64,000 bases of DNA from Aquitalea magnusonii (GTDB lineage: Bacteria; Pseudomonadota; Gammaproteobacteria; Burkholderiales; Chromobacteriaceae): positions 558,001-622,000 of the forward strand of contig NZ_AP018823.1 of the NCBI RefSeq assembly GCF_002217795.2, in the 5' to 3' direction. Under the pieces are notes generated by a model. That model worked only from the letters and a program-made list of their open reading frames with translations, made no database searches and was not told where the DNA came from. Shown piece after piece: positions 50,085-55,044 of the stretch (positions are counted from its first letter, which is position 1; every line of letters begins with the position of its first letter). The translations under genes were made by a program, and so were the position numbers.

Positions 50085-50228
50085 ATCATTTGAGTGGCTT
50101 GGGAAACCGAGACCGGATGGATAGTGAATGTGCGACGCGATCAAAGATCCAAGATAAGATACCTAATTAATTCAGTGATTCAGACGAAGTCTGGATGACA
50201 AAGCTTCTTCAAGTTTGTTGACAGTTTA

Positions 50229-50346
50229 TGTCTGGTGGCCATAGCGAGGTGGTCCCACGCCTTCCCATCCCGAACAGGACCGTGAAACGCCTTAGCGCCG
50301 ATGATAGTGTGGCATTCGCCATGTGAAAGTAGGACACTGCCAGACT
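50229..50346 (+). rRNA. rrf: 5S ribosomal RNA
   Basis: About 118 nt. The 5' GTCTGG pairs with 3' CCAGAC; the internal CCATCCCGAACAGG and AGTAGGACACTGCC segments are typical. Confidence 0.95.
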
Positions 50347-50357
50347 CCCCTTACAGA

Positions 50358-50383
50358 AGCCCAGCTCAATCGAGCTGGGCTTT
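50358..50383 (+). terminator. rRNA operon terminator
   Basis: Ten-bp stem AGCCCAGCTC / GAGCTGGGCT with an AATC loop followed by TTTG, just after the 5S gene. Confidence 0.85.
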
Positions 50384-50489
50384 GTGCTTTGTGGCGTATG
50401 GTGGCAATGTGCAATGTGCGCTGCTTTGGTTTGTGAGCGCTGCTGATTGTGCCGGACAATGCTGGCATTACTTTGGCTATGGAGCACTG

Positions 50490-51890
50490 ATGCTATTACG
50501 CCATCTGTCTTTCAAAACCTTGCTGGTTGCCAGCCTGTTTGTGGTGACGCTGATTCCTTCGTTGGCTTTGGTTCAAACTTGGTGGCATTTGCAGCAGCTG
50601 GCAGAACAGGTAGATCAAAGCCAGCGGCAAGCACAGCAGCTTGCCGAAACCATGCGTGTTTTTTCCAGCCAGGGCGAACTGTTTGAGCGTGCTAGCCGGC
50701 AATGGAATGTGCTGCATGACGATAGTTATGCCCATGCCGGACGTGATGCACTGGCCGGATTACAGCAACTGGCTGATCGGCTGAAGCACATGGATGATGA
50801 GGGGTTGCAGCGCTTGGGAGGGCGGCTGATGCTGTGGAGTCGACAGTCGCGGCTGCTGCTGGATGGCGCGGATCATCCTGCCAGTGCGTGGTCGAGCCAA
50901 TATCTGGCTTTGGCCAGCCTGGGGGCCGAGCTTGAAACGCACATCAGGCAGCTTGCTGACGCGAGGCGACAGCAGTGGGATGGCAGCTTGCGAGACAAGC
51001 GCCAGCAGGCTGATCGGGTGGCCGTGTTGTCTCTGTGCCTTGCGATTGGATGTGGTTTGCTGCTGGCTTGGTTGCTGGTTCGGCCCTTGCAGCACTTGCG
51101 CAGCAAGATTGCCGCTCTGGCACAAGGTGTGCGAGGCCAGTCCTGGGGGATGTCCGCGCCTGTGGATATCGTGCAACTTGCGGCTGCGCTGGGGGAGCTG
51201 GATCAGCGTCTTGCCCGGCTGGAGGAAGATAAGGCTGACTTTTTTCGCCACGTTTCGCATGAACTCAAAACACCGTTGGCCGCCATTCAGGAGGCTTCCT
51301 CGCTCTTGCAGGACCAGATTCCAGGCCCTTTGCTGCCATCTCAGCAGGAAATCGTGGCTATCACGCTATCCAATACCCGTCTGTTGCGACAGCGTGTTGA
51401 TGCGCTATTGATGCATGATGCGGCCAACTGGCTGGAGCGGCCGCTTGCCATGGCGCAGCATGATTTGTGTGCGCTGATTGCGGTGTCTGCCGCGGCCATG
51501 CAGCCATTACTGCAGCAAAAGCGGCTGCGTCTTGAATTGCCGTCTGGTATTTTGCTGGTACAGGTGGATCAGGAAAAACTCCGAACCATTATCGATAATC
51601 TTCTTTCTAACGCCATCAGGTTTTCTCCAAGTGATGGTGTCATTTCTGTAGAAGCGCTCAGGCTAGCTGACAGGACTATGGTGTCCGTCATGGATCAAGG
51701 TCCTGGAATTCCTGCCCAGCAGCACATGCTGGTATTTCAGCCCTTTTATACCGGGCCGGCGCCATTTGGCGAGCCGCCTGGAAGTGGTATTGGGCTGACC
51801 ATGGTAAAAACCTTTGCTCAATTGATGGGTGGAGATGTCGAGTCATTACCGGCAGAACGAGGCGCGCATTTACGCGTCTGGTGGCCATGA
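50490..51890 (+). CDS. glrK: Sensor histidine kinase, GlrK/QseE type
   Basis: Membrane sensor kinase of 466 residues. TM1 about residues 10-30 (LLVASLFVVTLIPSLALV), a periplasmic helical domain of ~140 residues, TM2 about 172-193 (VAVLSLCLAIGCGLLLAWLLV), HAMP, HisKA with phospho-accepting H257 in HVSHELKTPL, and HATPase with NLLSNAIRF, DQGPGIP and GSGIGLTMV. The ATG at 50490 follows GGAG. Kinase, small lipoprotein and sigma-54 response regulator in this order match GlrK-GlrL-GlrR (QseE-QseG-QseF) of enterobacteria, which senses envelope state. Confidence 0.87.
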   Translation: MLLRHLSFKTLLVASLFVVTLIPSLALVQTWWHLQQLAEQVDQSQRQAQQLAETMRVFSSQGELFERASRQWNVLHDDSYAHAGRDALAGLQQLADRLKHMDDEGLQRLGGRLMLWSRQSRLLLDGADHPASAWSSQYLALASLGAELETHIRQLADARRQQWDGSLRDKRQQADRVAVLSLCLAIGCGLLLAWLLVRPLQHLRSKIAALAQGVRGQSWGMSAPVDIVQLAAALGELDQRLARLEEDKADFFRHVSHELKTPLAAIQEASSLLQDQIPGPLLPSQQEIVAITLSNTRLLRQRVDALLMHDAANWLERPLAMAQHDLCALIAVSAAAMQPLLQQKRLRLELPSGILLVQVDQEKLRTIIDNLLSNAIRFSPSDGVISVEALRLADRTMVSVMDQGPGIPAQQHMLVFQPFYTGPAPFGEPPGSGIGLTMVKTFAQLMGGDVESLPAERGAHLRVWWP

Positions 51891-51911
51891 TCCTGCTGAG
51901 TGAACAAGTGC

Positions 51912-52424
51912 ATGATGCGTAAAAATATATATGCCTTGCTGGTGCTGCTGATGGTGACCGGCTGTGCGGGCATCAGCGGGCGGCAGTCGCGCGATGGTGC
52001 TACCTCTGCTGGCGGCAGATACGCGCAACGTAGTTGCCCTGATGCGGATGCGGTGTTGGGCAGTGTTCGCCGGGGAAAAGAAAGCGTTGTGCCTGCTCGG
52101 GAGGCTTGTGCGGGTGACAGGCTGCGTTTTGTCGCCCAGCAACTACTGAATGGCGAGGCCAGGTTTGACACCATGCGCATACAGTTGGAACTGGCCAATG
52201 CCCAGTTACGACAGGAGCCCGCAGAGGGACTGAGCGGCTTATCCCTACTGTTGTCCGTGCAGTTAAACGAACGCAGGCGGCATGATGAGTCGCTGCAAAA
52301 AAGCAATGCCCAGTTGCTGGAGCAGCAGCACCGGGCGGATGAGTTGGCGGCAAAGCTGGATGCTTTGCGCCAGATTGAACAATCCATGGTCAACAAGGCC
52401 AGCAAGAAGAAAATACAGCCATGA
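51912..52424 (+). CDS. QseG/GlrL-like outer-membrane lipoprotein
   Basis: 170-residue protein from the ATG at 51912, with a signal peptide and lipobox VTGC, then a soluble, largely helical region with a coiled-coil C terminus (RHDESLQKSNAQLLEQQHRADEL, split by Gln/Glu heptads). Located between kinase and regulator and overlapping the regulator start by four bases, it occupies the position of QseG/GlrL, an activator of the kinase QseE. GTG at 51900 and ATG at 51915 are alternative starts. The identity rests on position, size and lipoprotein nature, not on strong motif similarity. Confidence 0.72.
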   Translation: MMRKNIYALLVLLMVTGCAGISGRQSRDGATSAGGRYAQRSCPDADAVLGSVRRGKESVVPAREACAGDRLRFVAQQLLNGEARFDTMRIQLELANAQLRQEPAEGLSGLSLLLSVQLNERRRHDESLQKSNAQLLEQQHRADELAAKLDALRQIEQSMVNKASKKKIQP

Positions 52425-53767
52425 AGCAAAGTGGACGCGTATTACTGGTTGATGACGATGCTGATCTGTTGCGCCTGCTTAGCCTGCGTCTTGAAGCTGC
52501 CGGCTATCTGGTAGACAAGGCTGCATCTGCCGAGGCTGCCTTGAGCGCACTGGCGGTACGTCGGGCGGATGTACTGCTGACTGACTGGCGCTTGCCTGGC
52601 ATGAATGGCATGGATTTATTCGAACTGGTGAAAAAGAGTTATCCATCAATGCCGGTCATCATTCTGACTGCACATGGTACGGTGCCGGACGCTGTTGATG
52701 CGGTCAGTCGCGGTGTGTTCGGTTATCTGGTGAAGCCATTTGACAGTGCTGCCTTGCTGAATAAGGTGGAGCAGGCTTTACAGCTGTCTGCACCTGCCAT
52801 GGTGGTGGATGATCAGAATGCCTGGCGTGCGGAAGTGGTGAGTTGCAGTCCCCTGATGGATGAGCTGCTGGCCGAGGCCCGTCTGGTTGCAGCAACGGAT
52901 GCCAGCGTGTTGATCCGTGGCGAGAGTGGCACTGGCAAGGAAGTGCTGGCCCGCGCCTTGCACCGCGCCAGTCCGCGTGCCAGCGGGCCGTTTATCGCGG
53001 TCAATTGTGCGGCCATTCCGGATAACTTGCTGGAGAGTGAGTTGTTTGGTCATGAGAAGGGGGCATTTACCGGTGCTGCCGCACGTCATCAGGGTCTGAT
53101 TGCCCAGGCCGATGGCGGCACTCTGTTTCTGGATGAGATCGGTGACATGCCGCTGGCCTTGCAGGTCAAGTTATTGCGCGTGCTGCAGGAGCGCGAGGTG
53201 CGACCGGTTGGTGCCAGCAAATCATTGGCGGTGGATGTGCGCGTCATCTCGGCGACGCATCGTGATCTGGAGTCGCTGATCGGAGACGGCCTGTTCCGGG
53301 AGGACTTGTTTTACCGACTGAATGTGGTGGCCTTGCAATTGCCTGCGCTCAGTGAGCGCAGGGAAGACATTCCCTTGCTGTCGCAACATTTTCTGGCGCA
53401 GCTATGTGAGCGTTATGGCAAGGAGGTGGCTGGTTTTGCCCCGGATGCCATGGAGTATCTGTGCAGCCTGCGCTGGTCTGGCAATATCCGTCAGTTGGCC
53501 AATGCGGTGGAGCAATGCTGTGTGCTTAGCACCTCTGGCTTGATTCCGCTGAGCCTGGTGCAAAAAGCCGTGTCTGATGGCATGGCCAGTATTCCAACAC
53601 TGGCTGAGGCAAGACGTCAGTTTGAACGGGATTACCTGGAAAAGCTGCTGCGGGTGACTGCGGGCAATGCCAGTGTGGCCGCGCGCATTGCGGACCGGAA
53701 CCGCACTGAATTTTATCGGCTGTTGCAAAAGCATGATTTGGTTGCATCTGCATTCAAGGAGTGTTGA
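52421..53767 (+). CDS. glrR: Sigma-54-dependent response regulator, GlrR/QseF type
   Basis: NtrC-family enhancer-binding protein of 448 residues. REC domain with VDDD at the start and phospho-acceptor D55 in LLTDWRLPG; AAA+ domain with Walker A GESGTGKE near 166-173, sigma-54 contact loop GAFTGA near 213, and Walker B LFLDEIGD; C-terminal helix-turn-helix (ASVAARIADRNRTEFYRLLQ). The enterobacterial homologue binds TGTC-N10-GACA; two exact copies lie at once downstream, before a sigma-54 promoter. It overlaps the lipoprotein gene (ATGA). Confidence 0.9.
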   Translation: MKQSGRVLLVDDDADLLRLLSLRLEAAGYLVDKAASAEAALSALAVRRADVLLTDWRLPGMNGMDLFELVKKSYPSMPVIILTAHGTVPDAVDAVSRGVFGYLVKPFDSAALLNKVEQALQLSAPAMVVDDQNAWRAEVVSCSPLMDELLAEARLVAATDASVLIRGESGTGKEVLARALHRASPRASGPFIAVNCAAIPDNLLESELFGHEKGAFTGAAARHQGLIAQADGGTLFLDEIGDMPLALQVKLLRVLQEREVRPVGASKSLAVDVRVISATHRDLESLIGDGLFREDLFYRLNVVALQLPALSERREDIPLLSQHFLAQLCERYGKEVAGFAPDAMEYLCSLRWSGNIRQLANAVEQCCVLSTSGLIPLSLVQKAVSDGMASIPTLAEARRQFERDYLEKLLRVTAGNASVAARIADRNRTEFYRLLQKHDLVASAFKEC

Positions 53768-53786
53768 AGCAGTCGCGGCCGCTCAA

Positions 53787-53818
53787 CCCCTGTCGCCAAA
53801 TGGCGACAGGGGTTTTTT
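53787..53818 (+). terminator. Rho-independent terminator of glrKLR
   Basis: Eleven-bp stem CCCCTGTCGCC / GGCGACAGGGG with an AAAT loop and six T, 20 bases after the glrR stop. Its stem contains a complete TGTC-N10-GACA palindrome (53791-53808). Confidence 0.9.
53791..53808. promoter_or_regulatory. Candidate GlrR binding site 1
   Basis: TGTC-GCCAAATGGC-GACA matches the TGTC-N10-GACA consensus known for GlrR exactly. It is centred about 176 bases upstream of the predicted sigma-54 start and embedded in the glrR terminator stem. Confidence 0.6.
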
Positions 53819-53857
53819 ATTTTAAATCAATGGCTTGGTGCTTTGTGGTGGTCCGGC

Positions 53858-53875
53858 TGTCGCCAGTTTGCGACA
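53858..53875. promoter_or_regulatory. Candidate GlrR binding site 2
   Basis: TGTC-GCCAGTTTGC-GACA is a second exact TGTC-N10-GACA site, centred about 110 bases upstream of the predicted start, a normal enhancer distance. Unlike site 1 it is not part of a terminator, so its presence is not explained by RNA folding. Confidence 0.72.
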
Positions 53876-53949
53876 GAATGGCCCGGCTTGATGGGGTGGG
53901 TAGACGGTGTTTTTATGCAAGTTACTGTTATTAAAGGAAATTAAATAGC

Positions 53950-53965
53950 TGGCACGGCATTTGCA
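53950..53965 (+). promoter_or_regulatory. Sigma-54 promoter of the BON-domain gene
   Basis: TGGCACGGCATTTGCA has the -24 element TGGCACG and the -12 element TTGCA with exactly ten bases between GG and GC, a full match to the RpoN consensus. Transcription should start near 53976, giving a leader of about 25 bases. Confidence 0.88.
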
Positions 53966-54000
53966 AAGACAGGGGAAACGCTCTTGTCGTGAGGTGTGGA

Positions 54001-54333
54001 ATGAAAATGAAACGTTCTGGCTTGCTGCTTTTCTTGTTGCTTTCCCTGCAGGGTGCGATGGCTGCCGGCAGCTTGGTGCTTGATCCGATTGCTGAGCATG
54101 TTGCGGTTACCCACCTGTCGGCCGACGAAAAAATTGCCTGGGAATTGAATGAAGTGTTGAAGCCGCTGGCGGATGGTTCTGGCTCGGTGGTGCATCCTTG
54201 GGTAAAGGCCGGAATGGTGAGGCTACAGGGTTCAAGCCCCAGCCGGGATGCCATCCGGCATTTGCTGGAAGTGGCGGCCAATGTCCCCGGTGTGCGCGAA
54301 GTCCGCTCGGAAATGTCGATTCGTCCTATCTGA
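54001..54333 (+). CDS. Small secreted BON-domain protein
   Basis: 110-residue protein from the ATG at 54001 with a signal peptide (LLLFLLLSLQGAMAAG) and a single BON domain at about 48-108 (VKAGMVRLQGSSPSRD, ANVPGVREVRSEM). BON domains occur in periplasmic proteins that bind membranes or protect against envelope stress (OsmY, DolP). A TGTGGA stretch precedes the start. Its only visible promoter is the sigma-54 one, with two GlrR-type sites upstream, so it is probably the direct output of the adjacent kinase-regulator pair. Followed by a terminator; monocistronic. Confidence 0.82.
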   Translation: MKMKRSGLLLFLLLSLQGAMAAGSLVLDPIAEHVAVTHLSADEKIAWELNEVLKPLADGSGSVVHPWVKAGMVRLQGSSPSRDAIRHLLEVAANVPGVREVRSEMSIRPI

Positions 54334-54363
54334 CTGTCTATTGCTTGATGTGAACTGCCCTTT

Positions 54364-54399
54364 GGCCTGCCTTCCCCCCCGAGAGGCAGGCCTTTTTTT
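54364..54399 (+). terminator. Rho-independent terminator after the BON gene
   Basis: GGCCTGCC / GGCAGGCC stem with a 13-base loop and seven T, 30 bases after the stop. Confidence 0.85.
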
Positions 54400-54401
54400 A
54401 T

Positions 54402-54755
54402 TCAGAAGCTGAGCACCTTGTCTGCTTCCAGTGTCCAGCCTGCTAGCTCTGGCATGGTGCTTATCTTTACCCCGGGCAGCAGGCGTGTCTGATCCAGCCC
54501 GCGTGCCTCGGCACAGCTGCGGCAAACATAGACTGCCACGCTGTGTGCCATGGCTTCTGTCAGCATCTCGCCCAGGCTGGGACCAGCCGTATTGCCCTGA
54601 CCGCTTTGTGCGGTAATGACGGCATCAGAAATGAGAAACAGTTTGATACGACTGGGCTGGCTATGGCTGGCGAGGGCAAGTGTCAGGCGTAGTGCGCTAA
54701 GGATGCGTTCGCTGCCATAGGGGCTGGCATTCAGGGTCAATAAAATATTCTGCAC
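54402..54755 (-). CDS. DsrE/DsrF-like family protein
   Basis: 117-residue cytoplasmic protein of the DsrE/YchN fold: QNILLTLNASPYGSERI at the N terminus, KLFLISDAV in the core and the family cysteine motif VCRSCAEARGL near residue 90. Members take part in sulfur relay, but single-gene versions like this have no assigned role. I chose the GTG at 54755, since AGGA lies about 6 bases upstream; the longer frame to 54797 begins with TTG without support. It converges on the BON gene. Confidence 0.78.
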   Translation of the reverse strand: MQNILLTLNASPYGSERILSALRLTLALASHSQPSRIKLFLISDAVITAQSGQGNTAGPSLGEMLTEAMAHSVAVYVCRSCAEARGLDQTRLLPGVKISTMPELAGWTLEADKVLSF

Positions 54756-55044
54756 GGCTATCCTGTCATTGGCTACAAAGTGGAAACGGCGTGACAAGTG
54801 CTGCTGGTATTGGGGGCATGCCGTTTTACTAAGCTACAGCGTTGTGGCAATGCAACAGCTACACGCAGTTGCGGCAAGCCAAATAATAGGACAAGTCGCT
54901 TGATTTGCCTTGCTCGTTTGCCTTGGATGCAATATTAACTTCTACGAATATTTTATATTGTCGAACAAAGAAAAATGCAATTGTATACAATAGGCAAATC
55001 TTAACCGGTACAAACCGGGCTGCGAACAAAATCGGGAGTTTTCC
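54756..55044. other. Intergenic region upstream of putA
   Basis: 289 bases, AT-rich near putA. A perfect palindrome TTGTATACAA lies at 54982-54991, which could be an operator or overlap a -10 box. I could not place a -35/-10 pair with good spacing. No gene is apparent. Confidence 0.4.

Follow-up and report, generated by a model that had tools for sequence, protein, structure and literature searches.

A probable QseE-QseG-QseF-type envelope sensor in Aquitalea magnusonii with an adjacent, predicted GlrR- and sigma-54-dependent BON-domain protein gene

We analysed a 64,000-nucleotide stretch of the Aquitalea magnusonii genome (NZ_AP018823.1, positions 558,001 to 622,000; hereafter the window), in which the genes for a histidine kinase, a lipoprotein and a GlrR-like regulator are followed by two palindromes, a sigma-54 promoter and a gene for a small exported BON-domain protein. 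Very probably this locus encodes a QseE-QseG-QseF-type three-component envelope sensor with a protein output of its own, working through the GlrR-sigma-54 mechanism described below. A sensor of this type has already been reported in Betaproteobacteria (excerpts of PMC12691602), and the promoter layout is the known one of glmY; what is new is that the sensor has a protein output dedicated to it. Our literature searches met with no dedicated adjacent protein output, nor its spread through the family and order, no exchange of such an output for other envelope genes, and no terminator doubling as a GlrR site. The features of the locus, in window coordinates, are as follows.

50231-50345: 5S rRNA gene, upstream of the histidine kinase gene
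50490..51890, plus strand: glrK/qseE-like histidine kinase gene (HisKA and HATPase_c domains)
51912..52424, plus strand: gene for a QseG-like lipoprotein, GlrL (lipobox below the Pfam cut-off, gene position, profile match of the C-terminal helix to QseG)
52421..53767, plus strand: gene for a GlrR/QseF-like sigma-54 activator response regulator (GlrR the best NCBIfam model; identity to E. coli GlrR)
53785..53814, plus strand: predicted intrinsic terminator after glrR, containing UAS1 (stem, T tract, folding energy)
53791-53808, no strand assigned: UAS1, predicted GlrR site, TGTCGCCAAATGGCGACA (exact TGTC-N10-GACA)
53858-53875, no strand assigned: UAS2, predicted GlrR site, TGTCGCCAGTTTGCGACA (exact TGTC-N10-GACA, without terminator features)
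53918-53930, minus strand: IHF-like site (two mismatches in the window)
53950-53965, plus strand: predicted sigma-54 promoter, TGGCACGGCATTTGCA (full consensus)
54001-54333, plus strand: gene for an exported protein of 110 residues with a single BON domain (PF04972)
54402-54797, minus strand: gene for a DsrE-family small protein, convergent with the BON gene

By analogy with the homologues of E. coli and Salmonella, the outer-membrane lipoprotein would stimulate the kinase, and the kinase would phosphorylate GlrR. As the conserved sites suggest, phosphorylated GlrR would bind UAS1 and UAS2, IHF would bend the stretch that separates UAS2 from the promoter, and GlrR would open the sigma-54 RNA polymerase complex at 53950-53965 to give a short BON mRNA, the product of which would be exported and act in the envelope. 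The kinase gene starts about 145 bp past the 5S rRNA gene (window 50231-50490), so that read-through from the rRNA operon could add to glrK expression.

The kinase is related to E. coli GlrK over its full length (25.9% identity over residues 14-452) and matches PDB chain 9m08_C (E 1.3e-36, residues 14-454), an entry whose code occurs in the work on the QseG-QseE complex (excerpts of PMC12691602); it also keeps the QseG-contact motif ER..RQ..VL.D. The regulator has Response_reg and Sigma54_activat domains, an HTH_8 match that lies under its Pfam cut-off, and a helix-turn-helix stretch in which 15 of 21 residues are identical to E. coli GlrR, to which it is 55.6% identical over 441 residues. Its best match among the listed NCBIfam models is GlrR (NF011695) at 587.3 bits, below the curated cut-off of 763, and we therefore call it GlrR-like. 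Palindromes of the TGTC-N10-GACA type at the sigma-54 target add to its resemblance to GlrR/QseF. The lipoprotein gene lies between the kinase and regulator genes, and across Pseudomonadota, Betaproteobacteria included, qseG is described in this position between qseE and qseF (excerpts of PMC12691602). Its lipobox scores 17.9 bits with LPAM_1 (Pfam cut-off 20), and a lipobox ORF, by a simple pattern, precedes glrR in 92 of 121 loci. The protein appears too diverged from QseG for BLAST, which gave no significant match (E 0.19). By profile its C-terminal helix aligns with that of QseG over 39 columns only (probability 85, E 5.8e-6), and it is through its C-terminal domain that QseG binds the kinase, as described in the same work (PMC12691602, excerpts).

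The product of the downstream ORF reaches the gathering score of the BON family PF04972 narrowly (28.1 bits against a cut-off of 27, over profile positions 28-69 only) and, by eye, has a signal-like N-terminus without a lipobox cysteine. Its AlphaFold model (mean pLDDT 74, with block means of 83-89 over residues 41-100) finds its best structural matches in OsmY, DolP, BonA and the BON-like domains of CdsD. The modelled fold thus agrees with BON, and a shared fold does not show function. OsmY has two BON domains and DolP is a lipoprotein. DolP also has two BON domains (title of entry 7a2d), whereas the window protein has one and, by eye, no lipobox; the single domain likewise sets it apart from OsmY. 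We infer from the sequence that it is exported to the periplasm and, from its family, that its place of action is most likely the outer membrane or the connection of that membrane with the wall, as is supposed for BON proteins such as OsmY and DolP. A part as envelope-stress effector would fit both the BON family and the kinds of proteins that replace BON in other genera (see below).

The first-pass annotation had treated palindromes, -24/-12 element and BON gene as one unit, and in relatives within the family the three are indeed conserved together. GlrR was found in 10/10 genomes of the genus, and a promoter follows glrR in all ten loci (nine strict, one with one changed base) together with two palindromes (both exact in nine loci; in one the second is one base off). 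The exact pairs are 66-68 bp apart, and the distance from the start of UAS2 to the sigma-54 element is 92 bp in nine loci and 93 in one. In the family, 27 of 61 genomes encode GlrR at E 1e-115 or better, and all 17 loci from outside the genus have a strict promoter with at least one exact UAS (14 with two, 3 with one). The gene after the promoter matches BON (E 0.01 or better) in 16/16 readable non-genus outputs, the seventeenth being cut off by a contig end. Within the family, then, relatives that keep the operon keep the sites as well, and in genus and family alike a BON protein is encoded next wherever the contig extends far enough. With the window BON protein as query, 22 of the 61 family genomes gave matches at E 1e-6, all of them GlrR-positive, and 21 of these lie on the same contig, just after glrR, with one on another contig; the 34 GlrR-negative family genomes gave none at this threshold. 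Five GlrR-positive genomes have no BON match at E 1e-6: in one the locus runs off its contig, and the other four (loci L151, L159, L162 and L163) encode diverged BON proteins that were found by Pfam. Comparison thus shows that, across the whole family, glrR comes with both this promoter architecture and a BON gene. In one sister genus (L151-L154) a variable-length repeat of the DASAPAEQAQRATAAKG type lies between the signal peptide and the BON domain.

In the wider order, 153 of 399 genomes encode GlrR at E 1e-120, and 69 of the 158 genera have it. In 43 of 80 glrR loci sampled from outside the family, the first 300 bp after glrR contain a strict sigma-54 promoter, and 42 of these 43 have a UAS (at most one mismatch) upstream of it. 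Promoter density in this stretch is 1.79 per kb, whereas the remainder of these loci has 0.015 per kb; single-base shuffles, which ignore the kinship of the sequences, gave 0.03 promoters for all 80 loci. Of 19 exact UAS pairs, 17 have a spacing of 65-68 bp. The other 37 loci comprise 8 with a relaxed promoter and a palindrome, 7 with palindromes only, 3 whose palindromes all lie ahead of the operon, and 19 (of the 80) in which these patterns recognised no site. The combined pattern of a palindrome, 60-90 bp and a sigma-54 element occurs in 37 of the 399 genomes, representing 24 genera (reversed control 0); all 37 are among the 153 GlrR-positive genomes and none among the 246 others.

The genes behind these promoters are of several kinds. 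The 43 promoter-bearing order loci yielded 50 candidate ORFs, some loci contributing two and others one, and at E 0.001 these comprise BON (13), glycine zipper (6), glycosyltransferase family 2 (5), MdoG/OpgG (3) and EF-hand (2, which may overlap BON), along with single others and a remainder without match. The N-termini of the family-2 glycosyltransferases resemble OpgH, and OpgH-like ORFs (outside the Pfam scan) are the output in Variovorax, Pseudacidovorax and Pseudorhodoferax. In a Herbaspirillum locus (L167) the promoter precedes a BON-like ORF and is accompanied by no exact palindrome. In the order, genes for BON proteins, glucan synthesis or glycine-zipper proteins thus follow one and the same promoter architecture. 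Tentatively, and with some doubt, one might picture the sigma-54 output beside the sensor as a slot whose occupant can change: in this lineage evolution would have placed there various factors of the periplasm or outer membrane (BON, EF-hand with BON, glycine zipper or glucan synthesis) that remedy one envelope defect, and in the window's family the BON protein would close a homeostatic loop on the sensor. Rather unlikely is a reading in which GlrR control is as proposed and the BON protein, beyond being an end effector, feeds back on the lipoprotein-kinase pair. Such feedback would suit the adjacency and co-occurrence of the genes through the family and the predicted periplasm-facing position of all partners, but in other genera the sensor is retained while its output is not a BON protein.

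The architecture can be compared with that of E. coli. There, glmY is preceded by palindromes of the same type, and TGTC-N10-GACA-type palindromes are the consensus GlrR/QseF sites of enterobacteria (excerpts of PMC8745638 and PMC6075780), the known targets glmY and rpoE likewise coming from enterobacteria (PMC6075780, excerpts). The window shares with E. coli GlrK-QseG-GlrR (QseEGF)-glmY the gene order kinase-lipoprotein-regulator, the sites, a sigma-54 promoter, an output adjoining the operon and, as a predicted site here, the assistance of IHF (excerpts of PMC6075780). The difference lies in the output: E. coli has a small RNA, encoded ahead of the kinase gene, and the window has a protein, whose gene follows glrR. 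GlmY (RF00128) gave no match in window positions 50100-54500 and none in the 61 family genomes (Infernal with stricter filters), the E. coli control being positive and the sole match. The qseEGF clusters described with the QseG-QseE complex likewise have qseG between qseE and qseF and the kinase contact motif, but in the excerpts of that work the target named is glmY, and a BON output does not appear (PMC12691602). In gammaproteobacterial loci, exact palindromes lie 2.8-3.1 kb before glrR in Halomonas (L173), Arsenophonus (L175), Kushneria (L176) and Neptuniibacter (L177), where those of E. coli glmY sit, and a second Halomonas locus (L172) has no exact palindrome before glrR; none of these five has a palindrome downstream of glrR. 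Among the other five of the 14 loci taken as examples, L178 has a palindrome and a promoter downstream of glrR, L171 a palindrome there without promoter and L168 a palindrome upstream; L174 and L179 have none near glrR. A formal parallel is ZraSR-ZraP of enterobacteria, a sigma-54 two-component system that also lies beside its periplasmic protein target, but with another regulator branch and another output protein. The GlrR-type regulator would keep its DNA code while the output shifts from RNA to several protein families. A conserved adjacent target would moreover (i) offer a ready reporter, (ii) suggest that what the system guards is the periplasm or outer membrane, and (iii) link BON proteins to a defined sensor.

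The palindromes, the promoter and the BON gene stand where the first-pass annotation had placed them: direct reading gives two exact TGTC-N10-GACA palindromes, a full-consensus sigma-54 element and an ORF of 110 residues that scores above the PF04972 cut-off. The full consensus TGGCACGN4TTGCW occurs at eight places in the 4.85-Mb genome (reversed control 0), and only the window's copy is preceded within 400 bp by exact TGTC-N10-GACA sites; a single further copy has, in this range, a palindrome with one mismatch. A single TGTCGN8CGACA is ordinary, with 14 occurrences in the genome, fewer than the 30 of the reversed control; the outstanding feature is the tandem pair, 67 bp apart, together with the promoter. 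A looser match to the UAS-sigma-54 pattern (G000:C1:4721488-4721598, minus strand) was taken for chance.

Two further elements had escaped the first-pass annotation. One is that palindrome 1 is part of a strong predicted intrinsic terminator after glrR, with a 13-pair stem and a T tract (-26.9 kcal/mol, z -7.3). Counting as terminator-like a stem extended by at least 2 pairs with at least 5 T in the next 8 positions, we find that this description fits the first UAS of all 10 genus loci, of 2 among the 17 other family loci, and of none among the 40 order loci that have one. All 17 other family loci have the first UAS, mostly without terminator features, and these patterns are explained most simply if the palindrome was originally a GlrR site and became a terminator later, in this genus. 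The other element is an IHF-like site between the second palindrome and the promoter, and IHF is known to assist GlrR/QseF at E. coli glmY (PMC6075780, excerpts). The best IHF-like match starts 32 bp before the promoter in 10/10 genus and 13/17 other family loci, a spacing held although the palindrome-promoter distance varies. A site within one mismatch occurs in 9/10 genus, 14/17 family and 22/32 order intervals, the last being those of the 43 promoter loci from which an interval of 40 bp or more with its palindrome could be taken. In 300 single-base shuffles, which ignore the kinship of related sequences, counts as high as these never arose. The window has the worst site of the genus, with two mismatches against none or one in the nine other loci.

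It could be argued that the palindromes are mere terminator hairpins and that another activator serves the sigma-54 element, as palindrome 1 is a strong terminator in the genus and nine further proteins related to the regulator are encoded in the genome (E 1e-60 or better). This is most improbable: palindrome 2 lacks terminator features, the first UAS is kept in loci where it is hardly ever terminator-like, the UAS-sigma-54 pattern was found only in GlrR-positive genomes, and the palindromes are of the enterobacterial GlrR/QseF type (PMC8745638 and PMC6075780, excerpts). We give equally little credit to a constitutive or sigma-70-driven BON gene with vestigial sigma-54 control, for, although the sequence would allow some basal transcription to start at another promoter, scanning 53500-54500 with a simple sigma-70 consensus gave no promoter-like match (shuffles mean 0.4), and the sigma-54 element is kept in 27/27 family loci, with one changed base in one. 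GlrR-sigma-54 control of the BON gene, as first proposed from the window, is thus strongly supported by sequence comparison, through the sites in genus, family and order, the identity of the regulator and the glmY palindromes.

That the circuit is self-contained, as the first-pass annotation also held, is probably incorrect, because the UAS-sigma-54 pattern recurs once more in the same genome, outside the window (G000:C1:1457328-1457424, L275). This second site is also found in 4 of 5 other genus genomes searched (G002-G005), and in all five genomes that have it, the window's own included, it precedes an ORF for a small exported Pro/Gln-rich protein of 66 residues (68 in G003). An IHF-like site with one mismatch lies exactly 32 bp before the promoter in 4 of the 5; in G003 none fits at that distance. 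There would thus be at least one further candidate target elsewhere in the genome. BON-like ORFs (outside the Pfam scan) also stand behind UAS-sigma-54 promoters away from glrR in L251 and L266, so that the BON output may also occur in trans. GlrR-type promoters also precede further ORFs in L262, L268, L269 and L260, three of which resemble bactofilins and one a WecG-like glycosyltransferase.
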